Below are positions 30,583-47,767 of a stretch of DNA of 64,000 nucleotides, piece by piece. Each line of letters opens with the position of its first letter. Within the stretch, counting starts at the first letter, position 1. The notes beneath the pieces are model-generated. The model did not search any database. It had not been told where the DNA came from and worked only from the letters and a program-made list of their open reading frames with translations. The stretch is taken from positions 868,001-932,000 of the forward strand of contig NZ_RAPY01000001.1 in the NCBI RefSeq assembly GCF_003610355.1, written 5' to 3'. This DNA comes from Sphingobacterium detergens (GTDB taxonomy: Bacteria; Bacteroidota; Bacteroidia; Sphingobacteriales; Sphingobacteriaceae). The position numbers and the translations under genes were made by a program.

Positions 30583-31146
30583 CTACATACCGGGAGGAGT
30601 GCGATAAGTCATGATTTCCGTACCATTAGACTTTTTCACAATCTCCTTTGTATTTCTAAGTATTAATGTATGACTTCCAAGTTTGCTATATGATACAAAG
30701 TCTCCATCGGGAGTTTGTTTGCAGACAACAAACATATGCCAACCACCGTCTGCCGGAAGTGAGATAATCACTTTTCTCCCAGATCTCAATTCATTTTCTA
30801 TCGTTTGAAAAAGGCTGTCCATCGGAAAGGTTGCATCACGAGGCAAAACAAATTTTTGAGAAAAAATAATACCGTATAATTCTTTATTGTCAAAATCACG
30901 AAAAGAACCATCAGTTTTGTTCTGCCATTCATTTTGTAAGTCGTAAAAATTAAAATCCACCACTTTATAATACTTTAGTACCATTTCGACAGCAGATGGG
31001 ATGCAGGACATTTGAAAAAGTTGGTTGTGGTTATTTATGACAGTATCAAAAAACTCAAACTCATCCTTTTTTTGTGTTTGAGCCTCCGCGTGAGAAACAA
31101 AAGATGTGAATATTACCACAACTAAACTAAAGAGAACTTTTTTCAT
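30583..31146 (-). CDS. Secreted C39-like (papain-fold) cysteine peptidase
   Basis: The 187-residue protein has a signal peptide (MKKVLFSLVVVIFTSFVSHA). MSCIPSAVEMVLKYYKV (Cys near residue 47) matches the catalytic Cys helix of C39-type peptidases, and ADGGWHMFVVCKQTPDG supplies a His in the expected later position; DFNFYDLQNEW fits the following helix. C39-like proteases cleave leader peptides or act as free secreted enzymes. A tandem degenerate copy precedes it on the same strand, so the pair arose by local duplication. Substrate unknown. Confidence 0.75.
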   Translation of the reverse strand: MKKVLFSLVVVIFTSFVSHAEAQTQKKDEFEFFDTVINNHNQLFQMSCIPSAVEMVLKYYKVVDFNFYDLQNEWQNKTDGSFRDFDNKELYGIIFSQKFVLPRDATFPMDSLFQTIENELRSGRKVIISLPADGGWHMFVVCKQTPDGDFVSYSKLGSHTLILRNTKEIVKKSNGTEIMTYRTPPGM

Positions 31147-31192
31147 AATTTAAATTATTTTTGATTATCACACAAGACATGCTGACATCTCT

Positions 31193-31755
31193 CTACATAT
31201 GAGGCGGAATGCTGTACGTCATGATTTCTGTACCGTTAGACTTTTTTACAATTTCTTTTGTATTTCTAAGTATCGTTGTATGGCTACCTAATTTGCTGTA
31301 AGAAACAAATTCGCCATCCGGAGTCTTTTTATATACGAGAAATATGGACCAGCCTGTTTCCACCTGAAGTGCTATAATTACCTTTTTACCAGATTTCAAT
31401 TCATTTTCTATCGTTTGAAAAAGACTGTCCATTGGAAAACTTTCATCTCGTGGCAAATTAAATTTCTGATAAAAAGCAATTCCGTAAAATTCCTTTTTGT
31501 CAAAGTCACGGAAAGAACCGTCCGTTTTATTTTGCCACTTAATTTGTAAGTCATAGAAATTAAAATCTACCGCTTTGCAATACTTTAGCACCATTTCAAT
31601 GGCTGAAGGGATACCTGAAGCCGGAAAGATTTGATTGTGGTTATTTACAACAGTATCAAAAAAATCGTAATCGTTGTTATTTTTTTTTGTGCGTTCGCAT
31701 GAAAAATAACCGACGTGGTTATTAACAAGACTAAACTAAAGAGCATCTTTTTCAT
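31193..31755 (-). pseudogene. Degenerate tandem copy of the C39-like peptidase
   Basis: The first ATG (31753-31755) begins a signal peptide like that of the neighbour (MKKMLFSLVLLITTSVIFHA). At about codon 25 the frame is broken in a run of nine A (one A short of the number needed to join the rest), so the downstream part is open only from the internal Met at 31594 (133 residues). The alignable positions differ at both catalytic sites: the Cys helix reads ASGIPSAIEMV (Gly for Cys) and the His segment reads GWSIFLVYKKTPDG (Ser for His). The copy is thus frameshifted and catalytically dead. Confidence 0.8.
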
Positions 31756-32113
31756 AACTTAACTTATTTTTGATTAATTGGGCCTCTACGTAGTAGATAA
31801 AAACTTTATTGTTTCAGCATATCCCATCTTGTTCTTTTTTGGTTTATCTTGATCTTAATTGTTTATCAATGATTTTTACCTGCGTTTATTACCAAGACTG
31901 GTCCTTATTGGATCATCAACCTTTCGCAAAATGATGTACGGAAGCAACAAAATGGAACTACCGGTTTCTAAATCTTCATGGGTTATCTAATGTTTTTTTA
32001 AATATCGTTTACTGTTATAGAAAAATACATTAAAAACAAAAACTTTAGTAGCCTTTCTGTTTCAATATGTTGTCGATTTTTATCATTATTAATCGGTGTG
32101 TCGGATCTTAAAT

Positions 32114-34808: not shown

Positions 34809-36053
34809 TTAGTTTCTCTGTCTTATTTTGCTATTTAATTCTTCAAGTTTCGTTTTTGCGGTATTATTAGTTGGAGAAAGTGTCAAGATTTTTTCATAAC
34901 ACTTTTTTGCTTTATTAATATATCCCCTGACGGTGTAGGCCTCGGCTAAGCTATCCCATACATTTATTGATTGCGGATAATTTTTCGTATTCAGCTCAAA
35001 AATAGAAATTGCTATATCAGGTAGTTCTCTATCATAAAGGGCAACATATCCAATAGTATTTACAAAACTTTGGTCCGGTTTAGTATCAAAGAAAAGTTCC
35101 TTTTTTATTTTCGCACTGTAATTTACCAATATATAGGGGTCTTTTGTTACTTCGTTTATATCAATATTAAATGGTTCGAAGAGATATCGAAGGCCATAAT
35201 ATGTGGCAGGAATTGTTACTGTTAAATGCTTTTCGTCTTCAAAATATCTAAAGTCTACCCTCAGATCTGGAGATTTGTTCTCTTTCAGTAATTTATAAAA
35301 TTGATTTCCCCACTGATAATGCCTCTTATCCTCCTGCATATTATTGGCCAATGCAATATATATTCTAGCTTTTAGGTCAACTCGATTCTCTAATACTTCT
35401 TTACTTCTTTTCCCAATATAATTATGATCCCAAAACCAAGAAGGGTCGATAAGTAAGTAATAACTAAACAGCTGTGGATTTTCTAATAGGCAATGTAACG
35501 CAAATAGTCCACCCAATGAGTGGCCGATAATCATGCTTTGCGGAACGGTTCTGAAAGATTTATTTATTTCCACCATTAGTTCATTCTCCATAAAACGCAT
35601 GAAATCATCAGCTTTTCCGCTACTTTTAAATGCAGAAATATCTTCTCTATCCAAATAATTCAATGAATTTGTAGGAGTGAAATTCTTCGTTCTATCCGTG
35701 TTTTCTATTGAAACAATAATAAGTTCTGGGATTTGTAACTTAAGATTTGCATCTGAATGCATCGATTGTGCAATCCCCGACACTTCCAAAAACTTACTCC
35801 TGTCCCCATCTAAAACATAAGCAACGATGTATTTTTTGTCGATATTGTTTTTATAGGAAGCCGGTAAATAAACAGAATAATTTCTGCTTTCATTAAGTAT
35901 TTTAGAGTTTATCGTATAGCGTTGTCCAAGCATTAAAAAATTGTCATGTGATTGCGCAAAAGAATTGCTAAGGCTAAAAATAAAAAAACAAATTATTGTG
36001 GTTATAGTTCGGCCCGTCAGTATAATGCTGGAAATCATCCGTATTGTTGCCAT
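34809..36053 (-). CDS. Secreted esterase (PF00756-type alpha/beta hydrolase) with C-terminal TPR-like repeats
   Basis: The 414-residue protein has a signal peptide (ending near SNSFAQ). The esterase domain shows YSVYLPASYKNNIDKKYIVA, the nucleophile elbow GHSLGGLFALH, DPSWFWDHNYIG, and a late His in FEDEKHLTVTIPATYY. The last 80 residues (INVWDSLAEAYTVRGYINKA, KKCYEKILTLSPTN) form one or two TPR units. Fusions of this esterase type with TPR tails are frequent in Bacteroidota and resemble siderophore esterases, though no siderophore genes are near. It is a single gene. Confidence 0.88.
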   Translation of the reverse strand: MATIRMISSIILTGRTITTIICFFIFSLSNSFAQSHDNFLMLGQRYTINSKILNESRNYSVYLPASYKNNIDKKYIVAYVLDGDRSKFLEVSGIAQSMHSDANLKLQIPELIIVSIENTDRTKNFTPTNSLNYLDREDISAFKSSGKADDFMRFMENELMVEINKSFRTVPQSMIIGHSLGGLFALHCLLENPQLFSYYLLIDPSWFWDHNYIGKRSKEVLENRVDLKARIYIALANNMQEDKRHYQWGNQFYKLLKENKSPDLRVDFRYFEDEKHLTVTIPATYYGLRYLFEPFNIDINEVTKDPYILVNYSAKIKKELFFDTKPDQSFVNTIGYVALYDRELPDIAISIFELNTKNYPQSINVWDSLAEAYTVRGYINKAKKCYEKILTLSPTNNTAKTKLEELNSKIRQRN

Positions 36054-36318
36054 TAAAAAGGATTAAATAGATCTTATAATTACAAGTAAGCTTTAAATTT
36101 ATGTAAAAATTTTAGAATTATGAATATGTTTCAGCACGCCGAAAATCTAACTACAAAAAATGAAGGGGAATTTATATTGTGTCTTATTTCAAAAATTGAC
36201 AACTGCATCATTGCAAAATAAAATTCAATTAGGGCCAGATAAAATAGGGCTTAGCCGGTGGACGATGGCGAGTTGTCTATTACTAAAGCTTATTTTTCAT
36301 AAAAACCACTGATAACAG

Positions 36319-37105: not shown

Positions 37106-37147
37106 ATCTTTTGTTCTTTAAAGTTTGATATTTGCCGGGTGTCGATC

Positions 37148-38143
37148 TTAATAAACTTGAAGCTCCTTGCTGTTTTTTTGGCGATACAGATATAGCTGAA
37201 TGTAAGTTGTAGTACCAACTTCTTCATCTTTTCGCTTAAAGCCTCCCCACAGTGCTGATTTCTCATTATTAATTTTCTCTAAACACACCAGTTGTCCGTT
37301 AGCATAGAAAGTCATTTTGTATTTTTCAATGGGTTTCAGATCAAAAAACTCTAAATCCTCATCTGTTCGGAATTGATATTCTTTGTCCCAGCTATTTTTT
37401 ACTTTTTCAGAAGAAAGATACATTTGCTGTGCGAGTCTTTTTTCTTTTTCATATACAGCATTCGCCAAATCGTCTTTCGTGCCTTTCATATATATACCTC
37501 TTATCTCATTGTATTTTGCAACAACTTGCTTTTCTAATGCCTGTAGCTGGTCTTTGTTCTTTGTAAAAAGAACTTCGGCATTATCTAAAATGTCTATTTT
37601 GTAGGGAACTTCAGCGTCAAAAGTAAAACTGTCTTCAAAAAAATTCTTTCCGTCAAATGTTGAAACTTCTTTACCTTCCACTATTTTTTGTGGAGTGGTG
37701 TAGGTAGTCACTTCTTCCTCATCACCCCAACTGCCATCTGTACCCATGAAGGATTTTTCGATTTTGATCTGAACCCCAGAGTTTCTCATCAATGATGGAT
37801 GCATTGACTTTGCATTTTGATTAAATCCTGGAGAGAGACGAATGGTGATTTTTTGCGGGCCTTTTTGTGTGATGTCCCAATTCAAAGGGAAGTACGAACC
37901 CGATAAACTCCCTCCTGAATTATCTCTGTATTTGATAACGGGAACATCGTTGATAAGAATTTCGAATGAGCAATTACTCGTTGATATATTTGCGCCATAA
38001 TGCGGTTCTTTATCGAAGTGCTTTATTTCGGTTCCAATAGCATAGATATCCTTTTCTGATTTTGTGCTTTTATTCTGTCCCTTACAGCTAACAGATAGAA
38101 GTGTAAGATTTATAAATAAAAATATTCTGCTAAATTTCATCAT
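37148..38143 (-). CDS. Hypothetical lipoprotein
   Basis: The 331-residue protein has a lipoprotein signal with Cys20 or nearby (LTLLSVSCKGQ). A beta-rich middle (CSFEILINDVPVIKYRDNSG, GPQKITIRLSPGFN) and a helical stretch (EKQVVAKYNEIRGIYMKGTK) follow. No enzyme motif is seen. It is upstream of the DUF4240-like gene on the same strand and may share its transcript. Function unknown. Confidence 0.75.
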   Translation of the reverse strand: MMKFSRIFLFINLTLLSVSCKGQNKSTKSEKDIYAIGTEIKHFDKEPHYGANISTSNCSFEILINDVPVIKYRDNSGGSLSGSYFPLNWDITQKGPQKITIRLSPGFNQNAKSMHPSLMRNSGVQIKIEKSFMGTDGSWGDEEEVTTYTTPQKIVEGKEVSTFDGKNFFEDSFTFDAEVPYKIDILDNAEVLFTKNKDQLQALEKQVVAKYNEIRGIYMKGTKDDLANAVYEKEKRLAQQMYLSSEKVKNSWDKEYQFRTDEDLEFFDLKPIEKYKMTFYANGQLVCLEKINNEKSALWGGFKRKDEEVGTTTYIQLYLYRQKNSKELQVY

Positions 38144-38415
38144 ACTTGGTTATTTTTTTTGACAGCGAAAATCAGTAGGCCAATTATCGTAATTGGACTG
38201 TGCTTCTTTGCGATATACACATCATTTTGATTATACCATTTGTTTTTCATGGGTAGATTTTTGAATAAATTTAAAGATTTAATGCTTAGGTGTTCCCTAA
38301 AATTACAATTCGCCTGATGTGCTTTATTATTCGTTGCCGTCGGCCCGTTTTTTGGGAAGAGGTCAGTTTTGACTACTGACATTAAGTTGTCACAAACCAG
38401 ATTTAAATTTGCTTC

Positions 38416-39408
38416 ATGACAATTTTATTAAACAATAAAAACATGAGCGACATATCATCCGGTAAAGCATCCGATCAGATCGAATTTCCAGAGCCTACGC
38501 TGATTTCAGTTAATAATGTTGTATTAGAGGTATTTGAAGCAGGAAGGCAAAATTCGGGGAAACCGATTATTCTCTGTCACGGTTTTCCGGAACACGCATT
38601 TTCCTGGCGTTATCAGATTCCGGTTCTGGTCGCTGCAGGTTATCACGTCATTGTCCCAAATCAACGTGGTTATGGTAACTCATCTTGCCCCACCGAAATA
38701 ACGGAATATGATATAAAGCACTTGACGGCTGACCTTGTCGCGCTACTTGATCATTACGGATACAGGGATGCCACCTTTGTGGGGCATGACTGGGGTGCTA
38801 ATGTGGTGTGGAATCTGGCACTACTGTATCCTGAACGGGTAAATAAAATAATAAACTTGGCGCTGCCTTACCAGGAACGCGGAGAACAGCCATGGATTGA
38901 ATTTATGGAAACCTTATTTGGAGAAGACTTCTATTTTGTTCATTTCAATAAGCAGATCGGAATTGCGGATGCTATCATGAATGAAAACATACACCGGTTC
39001 TTACATAACATATTCCGCAAAGATATCCCTCCCGCCCCACCTGCTCCCGGCATGCTAATGATTAATCTCGCAAGAGCAGTAGAACCAATTGGGAAGCCTC
39101 TGATGGAAGACAGCGAACTGTCTGTATTTGTTTCGGCCTTTGAATTATCTGGGTTTACCGGAGCCATAAATTGGTACAGAAACCTTGATCGAAACTGGCA
39201 CCTTATGGCGAACATAAAGCCGATCATTCATCAGCCGACGCTGATGATATATGGAGAACAGGATACGATTCCAAAGTCTGAAAATCTTAAAAATATCGTT
39301 CCCAATCTGGATATTGTCAGTCTGGATTGTGGTCACTGGATTCAACAGGAAAAACCGGAGAAAACAAACCGCTCAGTTTTAAAATGGTTAGCCCAACAAA
39401 ATGCATAA
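38416..39408 (+). CDS. Alpha/beta hydrolase, epoxide-hydrolase-like
   Basis: The 330-residue protein (Met10 at 38443 is an alternative start) has HGFPEHAFSWRYQIPVL (the HGxP oxyanion motif), the nucleophile elbow GHDWGANVVW with Asp as nucleophile, and GEQDTIPK plus DCGHWIQQEKP supplying the acid and the His. An Asp nucleophile with HGFPE is characteristic of epoxide hydrolases and haloalkane dehalogenases. Its stop overlaps the start of the next gene by 8 bases, so the two are translationally coupled. Confidence 0.92.
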   Translation: MTILLNNKNMSDISSGKASDQIEFPEPTLISVNNVVLEVFEAGRQNSGKPIILCHGFPEHAFSWRYQIPVLVAAGYHVIVPNQRGYGNSSCPTEITEYDIKHLTADLVALLDHYGYRDATFVGHDWGANVVWNLALLYPERVNKIINLALPYQERGEQPWIEFMETLFGEDFYFVHFNKQIGIADAIMNENIHRFLHNIFRKDIPPAPPAPGMLMINLARAVEPIGKPLMEDSELSVFVSAFELSGFTGAINWYRNLDRNWHLMANIKPIIHQPTLMIYGEQDTIPKSENLKNIVPNLDIVSLDCGHWIQQEKPEKTNRSVLKWLAQQNA

Positions 39409-39982
39409 TAAGGATATAGATACCTATTGTCCGCAAAGCCAAACAGATTGGAGACAATGGTTGGATGAAAACCATCTGTCCAGACAATCTGTTTGGCTTG
39501 TCTTTTATACAAAAAAGTCGAATATTCCCTCATTAAGTTGGAGTGAGGCCGTTGACGAAGCGCTTTGCTTCGGCTGGATTGACAGCACAAGAAAGACGAT
39601 TGACGATTCTTCTTACATGCAATTTTTTACCAAACGTAAGCCGAAAAGCAACTGGTCAAAAATCAACAAAGAAAAAGTTAAGCAACTCAGTGAAAGTCGG
39701 CGAATGACAAAGGCGGGTTTAGCATGCGTGGAAGTTGCAAAACAAAATGGATCATGGACAATTTTAGATGAAGTTGAAGATCTGATCATTCCAAATGACT
39801 TAGAAATTGCTTTCGAAAAACATACTGGCTCGAGAGATTATTTTCTAAGTCTGAGCAAATCAACAAGAAAAATAATATTGGGCTGGATTATCCTCGTCAG
39901 AAAACCGGAAACCAGACAAAAGCGCATAGCTGAGGTTGTAGAAAGTGCAGCACTAAACCTTAAACCAAGACATTTGCGATAG
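39401..39982 (+). CDS. YdeI/OmpD-associated family protein
   Basis: The 193-residue protein has the family pattern: WRQWLDENHLSRQSVWLVFY, SWSEAVDEALCFGWIDSTRK and FTKRKPKSNWSKINKEKVKQ. Many members carry a C-terminal segment like WIILVRKPETRQKRIAEVVE seen here. Its function is unknown; in other bacteria it is linked to stress or peptide resistance. It overlaps the epoxide-hydrolase-like gene. The last 139 bases of the gene and its stop are present again at 43733-43871 with five mismatches. Confidence 0.9.
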   Translation: MHNKDIDTYCPQSQTDWRQWLDENHLSRQSVWLVFYTKKSNIPSLSWSEAVDEALCFGWIDSTRKTIDDSSYMQFFTKRKPKSNWSKINKEKVKQLSESRRMTKAGLACVEVAKQNGSWTILDEVEDLIIPNDLEIAFEKHTGSRDYFLSLSKSTRKIILGWIILVRKPETRQKRIAEVVESAALNLKPRHLR

Positions 39983-40288
39983 AAAGACACGTAATCCTTT
40001 TAGAGTCTTAAAAGATTAAATACCGGGGTGATTGGGCTATTTCGGAGTAATGACTATTCCTAGTTCCAGTTTCATAATAATAGTTACCAAAGTAGTTTGG
40101 TTATATCAACTATTTAGATTTGCCTAAGCATCATTAATCGCATAATTATAGAGTAATTTTGCCAGTTCTTCATTAGAATTAACTCTAAAAGCTTCATCTA
40201 ACGCTGATATTTTATGTTAAATTTAAACAAATCTTAAAACACGTAGCAAAGAATTAAAGATAACAAAAACAGATAACTTATATTTATT
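39983..40288. other. Intergenic region with a possible protein tail on the minus strand
   Basis: Between the YdeI-like gene and the next small gene only a 30-codon minus-strand tail is suggestive: SALDEAFRVNSNEELAKLLY then NYAINDA ending at TAG (40124-40126). No start is visible. The remainder shows nothing supported. Confidence 0.3.
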
Positions 40289-40711
40289 ATGAAAAAGAAA
40301 AAGACTTCCCGCATTGTTCAGTTGAGAGATAAACTAAATGATTACGGTATATTTGCTAGTGAGCAGTTTGCAAAAATGGGATTTCTTCGCGTAAAAGTTA
40401 CAGCTTACATAAGCAACGACGTTCCTGGATTTGTCCGATGTGAATTCACTGATATAGATGGTAATCTGCATATTATTGAAGAGAAAGTTCCAGTTCTATC
40501 TGACCAAGATTGGAACGAAAATACAACCTATCCTCTTTGGTCGTTGATCCCCGGGGAAATATTAGACCGGCGCATAGAGATTTTCACGACCAAGACCAGG
40601 AAAGAGAAAAAAAGAACGATCATTAAAATCTCGCTTGAAAAACCGTGGGGTATTTATGACAGCAATGATGAGACTGTTTTTGAGGTGTTTGATTTGGATG
40701 TTGTGGAGTGA
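40289..40711 (+). CDS. Hypothetical protein
   Basis: The 140-residue basic-start protein (MKKKKTSRIVQLRDKLNDYG) is soluble and beta-rich: VKVTAYISNDVPGFVRCEFT, then a Lys/Arg segment and GIYDSNDETVFEVFDLDVVE. No family is recognised. It lies 35 bases upstream of a DUF7660-like gene on the same strand and is probably co-transcribed with it and the GNAT gene. Small size and company suggest an immunity-type protein, but this is inference. Confidence 0.65.
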   Translation: MKKKKTSRIVQLRDKLNDYGIFASEQFAKMGFLRVKVTAYISNDVPGFVRCEFTDIDGNLHIIEEKVPVLSDQDWNENTTYPLWSLIPGEILDRRIEIFTTKTRKEKKRTIIKISLEKPWGIYDSNDETVFEVFDLDVVE

Positions 40712-40746
40712 TACAGAAAATTTATGTACGGTAATGTAAAAAACAT

Positions 40747-41004
40747 ATGGTTAATCAATTATACGAATTGAAAGTCACAGACAGACAAAGCTTCATTAAA
40801 TTTCTTGATCTTCTGCATCAGGATTTGCTCCAACAGCCTGAAACTTGGAAAAACAAAACCTTACCCGATTTTCTGGAAGCTTTGGCCGCATATACAGAAG
40901 ATATCCAAGGGTATTATGATAATACAGATGCAAATGTAGATGCTGAAAAAGCTGCGTGGTCAACATTTGCTGATATTTTCAAGGGCGCTAAAGTTTATGA
41001 GTAA
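40747..41004 (+). CDS. DUF7660-like small protein
   Basis: The 85-residue acidic protein has the pattern DRQSFIKFLDLLHQDLLQQP, WKNKTLPDFLEALAAYTEDI and WSTFADIFKGAKVYE, which is characteristic of a small family (DUF7660) common in bacteria with polymorphic toxin loci. No enzyme motif is present. It sits between two other small genes on the same strand. Confidence 0.75.
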   Translation: MVNQLYELKVTDRQSFIKFLDLLHQDLLQQPETWKNKTLPDFLEALAAYTEDIQGYYDNTDANVDAEKAAWSTFADIFKGAKVYE

Positions 41005-41043
41005 TAATAGGCATTTATACTAACGAAAACTACGGAATAATAT

Positions 41044-41451
41044 ATGAACATAAAGCTTAGTATTAATAGAGATTTGAATGCAAACGACATTCTGCAACTA
41101 TACCAAGCTAATAAATGGAGTGCAGCCGAAAAACCAGAACTACTGATAAAAGCCCTCTTAAATTCGCATTCTTTAGTTACTGCATGGGATGGTACAACAT
41201 TAGTAGGCCTAGGGAATGCCATTTCCGATGGATACCTCGTGGTTTATTATCCGCATTTACTAGTACTACCCTCCTATCAAGGCAAGGGGATTGGCCGTTG
41301 GATTATGGATAAAATGCAAGAGATTTATAAGGATTTTCATATGCAGATGCTCACCGCCGATGGAAAGGCTATCGACTTTTATAAAAAGAACGGCTTTGAA
41401 CGAGCAGGTCAAACGGAACCAATGTGGATCTATTCCGGTGGTGACCATTAA
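41044..41451 (+). CDS. GNAT-family N-acetyltransferase
   Basis: The 135-residue protein has the acetyl-CoA site LVLPSYQGKGIGRWIMDKM (motif A, Q-x-x-G-x-G) at residues about 76-95 and the final YKKNGFERAGQTEPMW strand. This is the short single-domain GNAT type. Substrate unknown. It is the third gene of a small same-strand cluster. Confidence 0.93.
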   Translation: MNIKLSINRDLNANDILQLYQANKWSAAEKPELLIKALLNSHSLVTAWDGTTLVGLGNAISDGYLVVYYPHLLVLPSYQGKGIGRWIMDKMQEIYKDFHMQMLTADGKAIDFYKKNGFERAGQTEPMWIYSGGDH

Positions 41452-41499
41452 AATTGAGGAAATAACAAAGTTCGAGCAAATATTATCAGCAATAATGGA

Positions 41500-42171
41500 A
41501 TGACGCATACATTACAAATATCAAATAGTAATTCCTTGTTAGATTCTAATTCACAAATTGAGAGGAATTGGTTTTATTATCTATTTATGGGCAAAATACC
41601 TGAATATAACAGATTAAAAAAACTTAAACGTATTGATTATTGGTGGATAGAAATTGACGATTTAAATAATTCAATGGGAAGGAAGATTCCCTTTGATGCT
41701 TTTAAATATCCAATAAGGGGATTGGGTGATGTAAAATTGAATTTAAACTCCATTCAACCCATAAAGGACATAGATAGAGCGTTGTTTAATGATATGTGGA
41801 GTATACATGACAAACGCAATTTCAACAAACTTGAACAAATGATTTCCAAATACTTAAAAAAATGGAAATGCACTGACAAATTTGATCCCCCTGAGTTTCC
41901 TTCAATAATAATTGATTTAAAATATCCCAAAGATATAATTGAGTTAGAAACGATTGAAGAATTAGTAAACCAAGTTGATTATATTGGGTATGAATGGACT
42001 GAATCGGAACGATTGATTGATTCGAAAGGAAACATGTATAGTACTGAATACCTAAATTTTGGACATCCGGTTGGAGTTGTGGTACCAAACAAAATTGATG
42101 GAAGTATAACGAACGAAGAATTAATCCATTTAATAGGGAATAACAAACTTAACTTTAAAATTATAGATTAA
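41500..42171 (+). CDS. Hypothetical protein
   Basis: The 223-residue soluble protein contains RNWFYYLFMGKIPEYNRLKK, a Trp-rich motif YWWIEIDDLNN and FPSIIIDLKYPKDIIELETI. No signal peptide or membrane segment. I do not recognise it. It starts 48 bases after the GNAT stop and may be co-transcribed. AT content is higher than in the PUL genes, as in the neighbouring accessory genes. Confidence 0.7.
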   Translation: MTHTLQISNSNSLLDSNSQIERNWFYYLFMGKIPEYNRLKKLKRIDYWWIEIDDLNNSMGRKIPFDAFKYPIRGLGDVKLNLNSIQPIKDIDRALFNDMWSIHDKRNFNKLEQMISKYLKKWKCTDKFDPPEFPSIIIDLKYPKDIIELETIEELVNQVDYIGYEWTESERLIDSKGNMYSTEYLNFGHPVGVVVPNKIDGSITNEELIHLIGNNKLNFKIID

Positions 42172-42291
42172 ATTATTCTCAACAACAAAGGGAGCTCTTG
42201 CCCAACGATGATCTTCAAAAAATGGAACTCAAATTGTGATTTATTAATATAAAAAGACTATTGCTGATGCATACCGCTTAATCTTTAAACT

Positions 42292-42651
42292 ATGAACTGG
42301 TTGTACATTTTTAAACATTGGGGAAGCACTTTATTACTTGGTGCAGTTCTTTTTATTCTCTCGGAGGGATTAGGCGCTGAAGAGGCAATTGTTTTTGCGC
42401 TCATGCTATCGGCCGCAAGTTTAGTCTTCTCTTTACCCACCCTATTGGTTTATATTTTAGTTTTCTACTGGCTTAAAAAAAAGAATAGAATGGACAGAAA
42501 ATGGGTAAGATTAATTTTGGTTTCCACTACGATTCTGGGCATTGGAATAACTCTTTTTTGGGTTAACTTCATTGGAATTATGCAGCCATTAATCTGCTAT
42601 TCAATTGCTGCAATTGTTTCCAGTTACTTTTTTGATATAGAAAAAGGATGA
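42292..42651 (+). CDS. Small integral membrane protein
   Basis: The 119-residue protein has four hydrophobic segments: TLLLGAVLFILSEGL, SLVFSLPTLLVYILVFYWL, LILVSTTILGIGITLFW and PLICYSIAAIVSSYFF. No motif links it to a known transporter. It converges with the Rpn-family gene, whose stop codon lies 17 bases away. Confidence 0.65.
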   Translation: MNWLYIFKHWGSTLLLGAVLFILSEGLGAEEAIVFALMLSAASLVFSLPTLLVYILVFYWLKKKNRMDRKWVRLILVSTTILGIGITLFWVNFIGIMQPLICYSIAAIVSSYFFDIEKG

Positions 42652-42667
42652 TTTCCCATAAAGAACC

Positions 42668-43639
42668 TTAGAGTTTTTCGATCTCTTCGACAGAAAGTCC
42701 TGTACCCTTAGCAATATCAGCTGTAGGTAGCCCCATTTCCTTAAATGCTTTAGCAGTCTCAACTGCTTTTCTACGCCCCCCTTCCGCTAAACCTTCCGCT
42801 AAACCCTTAGCTTTACCTTCTGCTAGACCTTTAGCTTTACCTTCCGCCAAACCTTTAGCATGACCTAAAGCTTCTCCGGATTTTTTGGCCGAATTAAATA
42901 CGCTCTCAGCATCACGCTTATGTTTTAAACTTGCTTCGTATGACATGAGTTCCTCCTCCGTTAATTTACCTATCTCCCCTATCTCAAAGATAAGACCAAA
43001 TATTCTTTTATCCAAAAATGATGGCAATCTATCCATGGTACTCAAATGTTTAAGTAAGTACAACCACTGATCCATAACTGTCTTTAGCTCCTCTGGCTGT
43101 TTATTAAACAATGGAAGCGAAATCATCTTATATCCCAATTTATCATAGAATATTTCTTTGGTCAATTTGTCACACAGCGCCACATCATAGAAATAAGGCC
43201 GCTCTGTGACACGGGATATACCAGAACTTCCATTTCTATCCATGTCAAACTCCAAAATACCAATAAAGTAAACCTGCGGTAGGTAATAATCACTACCCTT
43301 CTTACCTCGCGCTAATTGTTTATTGATGAGACGTGAGGTATAATACACCGCACGGTCCTTAAAAAATTCTTGAAAGAGCTGCTGCATCTCAATGATGAAA
43401 ACCTCACCATCGCTGCCGATACAATGTAAATCAAATACAACACGACGCATTTCCTCATAATCGCCATCTTGTTCTACAGGCTTATATCTTAGATCCGAAA
43501 TTATCTTCTCTCCATGAAATAGACTATTGAGAAACTCAATTAGTAAGATTTTGTTGTCCTCTCTACCAAAGTAAAATTTCCAACCGAAATCGGTACGTGG
43601 ATCTACATACCTACCCAAATGTTTTTTTGATCTAGCCAT
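42668..43639 (-). CDS. Rpn/PDDEXK_2-family PD-(D/E)XK nuclease (transposase-like)
   Basis: The frame is open to 43813 but Met at 43639 (MARSKKHLGRYVDPRTDFGW) is the family start; the upstream extension is read from a duplicated gene fragment. The 323-residue protein has DPRTDFGWKFYFGREDNKIL, LIEFLNSLFHGEKIISDLRY and the nuclease core FDLHCIGSDGEVFIIEMQQL (Asp, then E-x-Q as the (D/E)XK variant). The C-terminal tail has Lys-Gly-Leu-Ala-Glu-Gly repeats and ends with a short helix-turn-helix-like segment. Family members in E. coli (RpnA) promote RecA-independent recombination; they behave as mobile-like genes. Confidence 0.92.
   Translation of the reverse strand: MARSKKHLGRYVDPRTDFGWKFYFGREDNKILLIEFLNSLFHGEKIISDLRYKPVEQDGDYEEMRRVVFDLHCIGSDGEVFIIEMQQLFQEFFKDRAVYYTSRLINKQLARGKKGSDYYLPQVYFIGILEFDMDRNGSSGISRVTERPYFYDVALCDKLTKEIFYDKLGYKMISLPLFNKQPEELKTVMDQWLYLLKHLSTMDRLPSFLDKRIFGLIFEIGEIGKLTEEELMSYEASLKHKRDAESVFNSAKKSGEALGHAKGLAEGKAKGLAEGKAKGLAEGLAEGGRRKAVETAKAFKEMGLPTADIAKGTGLSVEEIEKL
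42791..42862 (-). repeat. 24-bp in-frame tandem repeat in the Rpn gene tail
   Basis: Three consecutive 24-base units (42791-42814, 42815-42838, 42839-42862) encode KGLAEGKA or close variants, with a partial unit before 42791. Changes in copy number would keep the frame. Such linker repeats are usual in this family. Confidence 0.8.
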
Positions 43640-43732
43640 AATATTTATTAATTGGTTATCAGGCAAATATACAATAACAAACTGAAAAATACTAAAATAA
43701 TTAGTATAAATATAGACAAGAAAGTATTTTGT

Positions 43733-43871
43733 AAGTCTGAGCAAATCAACAAGAAAAATAATATTGGGCTGGATTATCCTGGTCAGAAAACGGGAAACCG
43801 GACAAAAGCGCATAGCGGAGGTTGTAGAAAGTGCAGCATTAAACCTTAAACCAAGACATTTGCGATAGAAA
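43733..43871 (+). pseudogene. Duplicated 3' end of the YdeI-like gene
   Basis: 139 bases match 39847-39985 with five mismatches, covering the last 45 codons (SKSTRKIILGWIILVRK and on), the stop and three bases beyond. It has no start codon and lies immediately upstream of the Rpn-family gene on the opposite strand. Weaker similarity extends some 18 bases further upstream. Confidence 0.9.
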
Positions 43872-43881
43872 AAGGATTAAA

Positions 43882-43912
43882 TAGATTTTAAATACACCTT
43901 ATTTTTCTTTAA
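43882..43912 (-). repeat. 31-bp copy of an Rpn-gene 3' end
   Basis: Differs at one position from 47389-47419, which is the stop-codon region of the Rpn-family fragment at 47406-47657 (last residues VKEK). Here no Rpn coding sequence remains around it, so it appears to be the footprint of a lost Rpn-type gene next to the duplicated YdeI 3' end. Confidence 0.7.
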
Positions 43913-43944
43913 ATGCAATTCTTAAAGATTGAGGGAGTGTACAT

Positions 43945-45036
43945 CTAATATTCAGAGCCGAAAAGTTTCTGCCACCACATCCGCGCAGCTCTCGGCAAGC
44001 TGCTGTTATGTGCAGTAATTTTTTCCTCTTTCATTATTTCTGTCACGTCCTTAATTAAGTCATCCACCATTGGAGAAAAGTTTCTGTACTTTTTATGTTG
44101 ACCTTTTATAATATGATATGAATTCTTAGCTATCTCATCTGATGAGCTGTTTGTTCTAATAATTATTCTGCAAAGTTGTTCAATACAATCTCTTACAATA
44201 TTGCTGTTATCTGTTCCTTTTATTATACCCTCAAGGATTTCAAGAGCTTTATTATTTTCACCAGTCTCAACATATAACTCTGCCAATTGGTGATTGTAGA
44301 TGTCGGTTAGAAAATCTTTATCATTTTTTTTGAGTGTCAATTTATAAGCTTCAATCTCTGAAACCTTGTCCTCTGCATATTTGGCGTATGTCCTATATAA
44401 ACCTAGTTCTTCATAAGTCCAAGCTCTTTCTTGATTGATCCATTCAGGTAATTTCGTCAAAAATAGTTCTCTTTCATTTGTCGAATAGAGAAAATACAGT
44501 TCGTCTTGAATTGGTAATTTGTAACTCCTGAAATAGGACTTTTTCATTTCCTTCCAATCGTCAATGTCTGCCTGAGAATAAATACAACTTTCTTCCGCTT
44601 CTCCAATATACTTTAGCAGTTCAGTTTTCTTTGGGTTGTCCGCTGTTTTTAAATATTGGTAGGTTTCTTTAATTCCTGCCGAAACCAAATATTCTCCATC
44701 AAATCCAATTCCGCTGTCAAAATCAATATTTTTAGCTTCAAAAAACAACCAAACGATTTCAGGTGAATTGAAACGTGTCAGAATGAAGGCACAGAAATAT
44801 AAATTATCAACATCACCGTCTTTCCCATATTTTCGCCATTCCTTTTCTTCTGCAAAAAGATATTTTACAATTTCATAGTCCGTCTGTTTAAAATCATTGT
44901 AAATTGCAATATTTAGTCTTAATCGGTCAAAGTGTTTTGAATTTACGGCGTCTTTGTCAAAGCGATAATTGTCCAGGAGTTTTGGATTCTGTCGGACTAA
45001 GTCGAGTTCAGTTTTATATTTTTCTACTACTGTCAC
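43945..45036 (-). CDS. Hypothetical protein with helical repeats
   Basis: The 363-residue soluble protein is mostly helical: a middle part (ERELFLTKLPEWINQERAWT, YRTYAKYAEDKVSEIEAYKL) and a TPR-like pair (DIYNHQLAELYVETGENNKA, LEILEGIIKGTDNS). It has no signal peptide. The N-terminal third, including YEIVKYLFAEEKEWRKYG and CAFILTRFNSPEIVWLFFEA, resembles uncharacterised proteins of toxin-immunity neighbourhoods, but no family is named with confidence. Single gene on the minus strand. Confidence 0.7.
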   Translation of the reverse strand: MTVVEKYKTELDLVRQNPKLLDNYRFDKDAVNSKHFDRLRLNIAIYNDFKQTDYEIVKYLFAEEKEWRKYGKDGDVDNLYFCAFILTRFNSPEIVWLFFEAKNIDFDSGIGFDGEYLVSAGIKETYQYLKTADNPKKTELLKYIGEAEESCIYSQADIDDWKEMKKSYFRSYKLPIQDELYFLYSTNERELFLTKLPEWINQERAWTYEELGLYRTYAKYAEDKVSEIEAYKLTLKKNDKDFLTDIYNHQLAELYVETGENNKALEILEGIIKGTDNSNIVRDCIEQLCRIIIRTNSSSDEIAKNSYHIIKGQHKKYRNFSPMVDDLIKDVTEIMKEEKITAHNSSLPRAARMWWQKLFGSEY

Positions 45037-45203
45037 GCTGTCTTGGTATTATTGTGCATCAATCTCAAATATACGCAATTCACTAAATTAGAGAATAGAT
45101 TCTATGGAAAATGCTAAAAAAGAGCGCTAAATTTATACAGCAATCCAAATACTTTTTTTTATATATTAGATGCAAAGCGATACTTTTAGGGTGATAAAAC
45201 TGA
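45037..45203. other. Intergenic segment
   Basis: Nothing supported between the helical-repeat gene start and the first coding remnant at 45204. Confidence 0.4.
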
Positions 45204-47381: not shown

Positions 47382-47405
47382 GAAATCCTAGATTTTAAAT
47401 ATACC

Positions 47406-47625
47406 TTATTTTTCTTTAACTATATCTGCCTCAATTCGTTTTACAAAATCAACAGTGACGTTCGCCAGTTCTGCAATATCCGAAATCGAAAACTTATTCA
47501 AAGACAAGAGGTTTTTTATTACTTCCGTTTTACCCTTAGCTTCTCCCTCTGCTCTTCCTTCGGCAATTGCTTTTTCGTGCGCTCGTTTCAATTGTTCTTC
47601 CTGACTATGGTTATGCTTACCATAC
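47406..47625 (-). pseudogene. C-terminal fragment of an Rpn/PDDEXK_2-family gene
   Basis: The frame reads HSQEEQLKRAHEKAIAEGRA, EGEAKGKTEVIKNLL then FSISDIAELANVTVDFVKRI, matching the Glu-Gly-Lys linker and terminal helix-turn-helix of the intact Rpn gene at 42668-43639. The nuclease domain is missing. Upstream of about 47625 the sequence changes to a different gene fragment on the opposite strand. It keeps its terminator. Confidence 0.8.
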
Positions 47626-47767
47626 CCAGGAGGGGCGACAAATGGAACGTGACGCAATGAAAGATGCTATTCTGGAAAAGTATGGTCTGCCCCTACTTCG
47701 TTTTTCGATCACGGGTAGCGATGAGCGGGAAAGGTTGGTGAGGAAATTGGATACGCTTAGCGGATAG
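47620..47767 (+). pseudogene. DUF2726-type protein C-terminal fragment
   Basis: The + strand frame reads MERDAMKDAILEKYGLPLLR then FSITGSDERERLVRKLDTLS before TAG (47765-47767). 'KD.I.EKYGLPLLRF.T.G..E..R' is the ending of DUF2726 nuclease-like proteins. Only about 45 residues remain; the break with the Rpn fragment at about 47620-47625 is abrupt. Confidence 0.65.

Follow-up and report, generated by a model that had tools for sequence, protein, structure and literature searches.

How did the 3′ end of a ydeI-like gene come to lie directly upstream of a gene for an Rpn-family nuclease in Sphingobacterium detergens, and was the nuclease responsible for placing it there, as the original prediction suggested it might be? 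All coordinates below refer to the window, i.e. the whole stretch of 64,000 nt that was analyzed. Direct repeat comparison confirmed that positions 39847–39985 recur at 43733–43871 (139 nt) with five mismatches and with the ydeI stop codon included; the homology reaches 14 nt further to the left (39833/43719), which amounts to 153 nt with eight differences. When the genome (G000; 12 contigs, 6,733,110 bases) was searched, the two copies were returned with E-values of 4e-75 and 3e-64, and no third copy was found, the remaining 17 of the 19 matches listed having E-values of 0.257 or worse. Thus, the repeat is far beyond chance; chance similarity was ruled out (E 3e-64), and so was a multi-copy element, with only these two copies found in the genome. 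The features of the locus are the following:

38416–39408, plus strand: alpha/beta hydrolase gene (PF00561; Pfam), the partner of ydeI, in a block collinear with genome G108 at 94%
39401–39982, plus strand: intact ydeI-like gene (PF13376, OmdA; Pfam), 193 aa
39833–39985, plus strand: source copy of the repeat, the ydeI 3′ end with stop codon (repeat search, alignment)
40289–42651, plus strand: the five small genes that separate the two copies (140 aa, DUF7660, GNAT, 223 aa, 119 aa; ORFs, Pfam)
about 41016–41454, plus strand: GNAT unit, which recurs as a gene-sized block
42655–43735, minus strand: approximate Rpn block, i.e. the gene with ~70–105 nt upstream and 3–20 nt downstream (recurrence in relatives)
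42668–43639, minus strand: Rpn-family nuclease gene, 323 aa (PF12784, TIGR01784; D-x13-ExQ motif)
42668–42946, minus strand: possible internal RpnS-like frame from Met232, 92 aa (sequence, after the model in PMC10327210)
43719–43871, plus strand: truncated ydeI 3′ fragment with 8/153 (5/139) differences and two amino acid changes (alignment)
43720–43732, no strand: new junction of ydeI with the region upstream of Rpn, with ~2–3 nt of shared sequence (by eye)
43882–43912, minus strand: 31 nt left over from the 3′ end of another Rpn-type gene, ~14 nt of them coding and 17 nt past the gene (repeat search)
43944–45100, minus strand: 363-aa gene, a gene-sized block reordered in relatives (coordinates in relatives)
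47406–47657, minus strand: the other Rpn-type gene, reduced to its C-terminal 83 aa and thus similar to a solo RpnS (TIGR01784)

Upon alignment with the intact copy and with G022, G021, G026, G008, and G010, four of the five differences were unique to the fragment, and the C at position 39958, common to the fragment and the intact copy, was absent in all five relatives. Thus, the fragment is the sister of the intact copy. Fragment and intact copy are as far apart (5/139) as are the intact copy and G022 (5/139), and at position 39931 the fragment groups with G022 and G008, apart from the intact copy, by which account it may also have entered from another strain. The predicted nature of the fragment as a recombination scar is supported. 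The sequences show the two copies, their sister relationship, the truncation, and the joint, as well as the changing surroundings of Rpn and other genes of the island.

Of the two copies, the intact one seems to hold the older position because ∼2.4 kb of the window containing its start (37122–39562) are collinear with G108 at 94%, and because the GNAT and 223-aa genes lie downstream there, too. In G108, the match to ydeI ends at the equivalent of 39562; the next ~20 nt resemble the 3′ part of ydeI (by eye), and this is followed by other DNA, after which the GNAT-223aa pair of the window reappears. Neither an Rpn gene nor a ydeI 3′ fragment was detected in the 19-kb locus of G108, where ydeI thus appears to be internally deleted inside an otherwise collinear block (L219 7523–7710). 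Full-length ydeI relatives are present in G022 (96% amino acid identity) and G008 (85%), and further relatives in G026 (93%, with a different 5′ end) and G021 (95%, with an in-frame TGA). Similarity of the G085 and G086 genes ends after residue 82, with an Rpn relative ~4.4 kb away; because the two genomes have one common break, they were counted as one case. An ancestral ydeI-Rpn pair was ruled out, as an Rpn match within 1.5 kb of ydeI was present in only one of 29 loci, that of G008. There, at the end of a contig, the start of an Rpn gene lies divergently beside hydrolase and ydeI, and a single deletion in such a layout would produce a joint like that of the window. G008 is not the exact precursor, though, because its Rpn gene keeps only ~25 nt of the conserved upstream region.

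The DNA following the fragment is unlike that following ydeI in G022, G021, G026, G008, and G010; instead, it is the remnant of another Rpn-type gene, which the original prediction had missed: 43882–43912 matches 47389–47419 at 30 of 31 nt. The 83-aa remnant matches TIGR01784 positions 223–273 with 25.7 bits, i.e. below the curated cut-off of 52.1. Since the presence of a second Rpn-type remnant beside the fragment indicates a further deletion, the locus was, judging from its present sequence, probably cut more than once. Alternatively, the locus may have been created in one step, by single-crossover integration of a circular DNA on which Rpn and the five genes were accompanied by a 3′ end of ydeI. 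The product would be a full ydeI, then the cargo with Rpn, then the ydeI 3′ end, precisely as in the window. Some integrative elements duplicate their target gene's 3′ end and so leave the full gene at one end and the 3′ copy at the other, and the window resembles them in this respect. However, no integrase or replication gene was recognized among the five intervening ORFs by Pfam search, the repeat has no constant length, and the fragment runs into the remnant of another gene. Moreover, because G108 also has the GNAT-223aa pair downstream of hydrolase-ydeI, some of the cargo was probably there already; G108 thus comes close to a relative that has the cargo in place without the fragment. We consider such an integration the least probable origin of the fragment.

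The nuclease gene itself is a clear member of its family (PF12784, 190.4 bits against a cut-off of 27.4; TIGR01784, 69.8 bits against the curated cut-off of 52.1), and sequence search identified its closest relatives in S. multivorum, S. athyrii, S. puteale, S. prati, and further Sphingobacterium. Its active-site-like motif D-x13-ExQ (D in FDLHC, ExQ in IIEMQ; read from the sequence) is presumably equivalent to the catalytic residues of PD-(D/E)XK nucleases. The C-terminal part contains KGLAEGKA-type repeats, the number of which differs between relatives, and the internal Met232 is preceded by the ribosome-binding-like GGAGGAGGAACTC (read from the sequence). In G008 (contig 36; L096 8658–10024), part of an Rpn gene is duplicated in tandem within the gene itself (residues 1–196, then 62–323). 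The fragment begins 80–94 nt upstream of the Rpn ATG and is separated from the gene by a conserved upstream region, which contains TATATTTG, taken here to be promoter-like, and also the CTAATTATTTTAG motif. Because this region sits between fragment and gene, a regulatory role of the fragment is unlikely. The open frame of Rpn extends to 43813 (42668–43813), into antisense ydeI, and residues 1–29 or 1–32 of this longer frame match antisense ydeI in L043–L046; a gene caller may therefore start Rpn too early, and automatic annotation may give a 381-aa Rpn with a false N-terminus.

Close Rpn relatives (84–97% amino acid identity) mostly occupy different neighborhoods in different species. Nucleotide similarity ends ~70–105 nt before the start and 3–20 nt past the stop codon in most pairs, except for L089 and L090 (over 700 nt shared upstream), L085 and L087 (238 nt upstream), and L084, L086, and L089 (about 106–121 nt downstream). 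The GNAT and 363-aa genes are likewise recurrent blocks, which several genomes place in the Rpn region in changed order (from coordinates). Such sharp edges in many contexts would be expected if the Rpn block, alone or with cargo, had been inserted as a mobile element that left a long ydeI target duplication of variable length. Two further observations are in line with this: G062 carries two Rpn copies that are 98% alike over 892 nt, ~3 kb apart and with unrelated flanks, and the block of L103 is bordered at either edge by a direct repeat of ~200 nt (79% identity). On the other hand, neither terminal inverted repeats nor a short target duplication of constant length were seen when the ends of 13–15 block copies were inspected by eye, and the edges vary (as in G008, whose block ends ~25 nt upstream), for which reasons Rpn as a transposon was rejected. 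The conserved stretch with TATATTTG and CTAATTATTTTAG suggests that selection on gene plus promoter can explain the block edges, the G062 pair may be due to local copying or gene conversion, and an Rpn-type remnant, instead of the sequence following ydeI in relatives, lies beyond the fragment. PMC10327210 also reports no sign of autonomous rpn transposition. Insertion of a mobile block is thus quite improbable.

Hypervariable islands of the defense or immunity type consist of small genes of unknown function, truncated paralogues, and gene-sized blocks that are reordered between species, and the island in the window resembles them in these features; it may be a polymorphic-toxin or defense locus, although comparison of ten window proteins with PADLOC gave one weak match only. 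In an integron gene cassette array, every cassette would have a conserved recombination site; between 30 and 55 kb of the window, four direct-repeat families of at least 30 nt were found, with two copies each. At 30583–31776, two adjacent related genes, which point the same way and are 78% identical over 300 nt, constitute another duplication with decay in the same island, the second gene being shortened (133 versus 187 aa) and the upstream region duplicated as well.

We consider it likely that the fragment is what remains of a second, now dead copy of ydeI after duplication and deletion in this hypervariable island, i.e. an ordinary pseudogene scar in a fast-changing region. A ydeI-containing segment would first have been duplicated within the lineage, or have entered from a very close strain; a later deletion, with one end just beyond the Rpn promoter region on its upstream side and the other within the final quarter of the second ydeI, would then have removed everything between, joining Rpn (minus strand) to the ydeI 3′ end (plus strand) with almost no homology at the joint. 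Illegitimate end-joining could have made this joint; Ku matches were obtained in 22 of the 24 genus genomes searched, including that of S. detergens, so that end-joining without homology is available to the organism. Both the order of these events and the joining pathway are what we infer from the present arrangement. Rpn would probably be a bystander at the edge of the break, kept by selection on the gene and its promoter. Duplication plus deletion needs at least two events, none of the genomes compared (one per species) had the intermediate, in which Rpn would be accompanied by two complete copies of ydeI, and the enrichment of Rpn genes in spanning repeats, described below, counts against it.

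According to the original prediction, the nuclease may have caused the scar; in that case, it would cut near its own gene, and error-prone repair would duplicate or capture neighboring DNA, here the 3′ end of ydeI. In PMC5350276, E. coli RpnA is described as an endonuclease of low activity and little specificity, overexpression of which increases RecA-independent recombination, and Ku is present. If the nuclease does act in this way, other Rpn genes should be flanked by repeats as well. A spanning repeat was defined as a direct repeat of 45–400 nt with at least 75% identity, the copies of which lie on opposite sides of a gene within 6 kb, one of them reaching into the gene's 300-nt flank. The 64 Rpn loci (the window, L050–L052, and L083–L142) were picked, mostly best first, from matches in 40 of 60 genomes; they were chosen before the full repeat test, the 22 Rpn genes of the nearest loci having been viewed before the other 40 loci were fetched. 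After removal of the near-duplicates L112 and L134, and with only Rpn matches of more than 600 nt retained, 62 genes remained. As controls, 20 island loci around the GNAT or the 363-aa gene and 40 random 19-kb loci at round coordinates were used. Because the loci are phylogenetically non-independent, all p-values given here are too small.

Of the 62 Rpn genes, 17 had a spanning repeat. Among the controls, such repeats were present at 3 of 56 ORFs of the island loci (p = 0.0014), at 5 of the 133 ORFs other than Rpn in the Rpn loci (p = 4e-6), and at none of the 146 ORFs taken from the 40 random loci. The window had prompted the test, and without it the count was 16 of 61. With the count extended to ORFs up to 1.5 kb from the ends of the loci and to repeats of up to 720 nt, spanning repeats were found at 6 of 170 island ORFs and none of 388 random ORFs. 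Local repeats of any kind were detected in 36 of the 64 Rpn loci and in 11 of the 20 around the GNAT or 363-aa gene; among the 40 random loci there were five with such repeats, of 70–77% identity. Islands are thus rich in repeats, and Rpn genes more so. However, when the 100-nt tail of Rpn was excluded, the count dropped to 9 of 62, compared with 2 of 56 island ORFs (p = 0.057) and 4 of 133 other ORFs of the Rpn loci (p = 0.005); much of the enrichment is accounted for by the Rpn genes' own tails and terminators. Leaving out 13 genes of array loci, which were listed by eye after the repeats were known, upstream-flank repeats were no more common at Rpn genes (7/49) than at other ORFs of the Rpn loci (16/133; p = 0.8). 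For the focal GNAT and 363-aa genes, the proportion was 1 of 21, compared with 17 of 62 for Rpn (p = 0.033) or, without the array loci, 10 of 49 (p = 0.15).

The content of the repeats also argues against capture. The 3′ end of an intact neighbor was inside only 2 of the 22 repeats spanning Rpn genes, the window providing one of the two, compared with 24 of 123 other repeats of the Rpn loci and 10 of 27 of the island loci, in a classification that ignores ORFs of less than 90 aa and thus counts short remnants as intergenic. Parallels to the window do exist: beside the first Rpn copy of G062 (its Rpn match, under 600 nt, lies outside the 62 counted genes), the 3′ end of a 193-aa gene is repeated (136 nt, 83%), in G027 a middle piece of a gene (69 nt, 84%), and in G034 a piece of 85 nt (88%), here on the 3′ side of Rpn. 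Of the expectation that captured 3′ ends of neighbors flank other Rpn genes, the enrichment in repeats held, whereas the capture of intact neighbors' ends did not. Rpn genes without flanking duplication are the majority (45 of 62 had no spanning repeat), local repeats also occurred in 9 of 17 island loci without detected Rpn, and in G108 and G085/G086 the break in ydeI has no Rpn gene next to it. These observations largely correspond to the two findings that the original prediction had named as refuting it, and the rarity of captured ends and the effect of the tail weaken a causal reading. A contribution of the nuclease to the scar is possible, but Rpn as cause is less likely than Rpn as bystander, and we consider the causal account unlikely. 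A more general notion appears slightly more doubtful still, namely that the islands of Sphingobacterium owe their hypervariability to Rpn nucleases, whose cuts close to the rpn genes, followed by joining of the Ku type, would cause short duplications, deletions, and the shuffling of single genes; if it were true, fragments like that of the window would be footprints of Rpn acting on its own neighborhood.

According to PMC10327210, gain and loss of rpn affect one gene at a time and leave neither inverted repeats nor duplicated target sites, the ends of the rpn region vary, evidence for autonomous transposition is lacking, arrays come from tandem direct duplications, and the separately made C-terminal domain serves as antitoxin; small C-terminal remnants have been published for other rpn genes as well. 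With its KGLAEGKA-type repeats, internal Met232 behind GGAGGAGGAACTC, solo C-terminal remnant, and local duplications, the window would fit this picture, and its Rpn, above the TIGR01784 cut-off and with D-x13-ExQ and a variable C-terminal part, resembles the toxin of an RpnLS toxin–antitoxin pair. A difference is that the E. coli Rpn proteins belong to PF04754, whereas the window Rpn belongs to PF12784 and is known here from its sequence. No earlier report was found in a literature search on Sphingobacterium and recombination-promoting nuclease. The Discussion of PMC10327210 suggests that RpnL itself may start recombination events around its own gene. In contrast to the published work on rpn, repeats around single Rpn genes were counted here against controls, and this comparison bears on that suggestion; the weak signal left after removal of tails and terminators shows what a real test must control, and a survey with suitable controls would be worthwhile to follow up the excess of spanning repeats at Rpn genes.

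Several other repeats were observed in these loci. In G015 (L084 8608–8736), 129 nt that are 96% identical to window positions 36009–36137, the start region of another island gene, lie close upstream of Rpn. A repeat of ~670 nt upstream of Rpn in several loci was set aside: of five sequences inspected, four (L107, L117, L120, and L122; L119 differs) contain a small gene of secreted type within it, the L107 copy, the one tested, being PF12893; this gene recurs in the four loci, often directly upstream of Rpn. Finally, the terminator segment that follows the Rpn genes of one clade (L120, L121, L122, L123, L128, and L131) recurs many times among the fetched loci, with 26–30 matches in 8–9 loci per query, 1–2 of them in random control loci, as if some of the copies had been left by lost Rpn genes.
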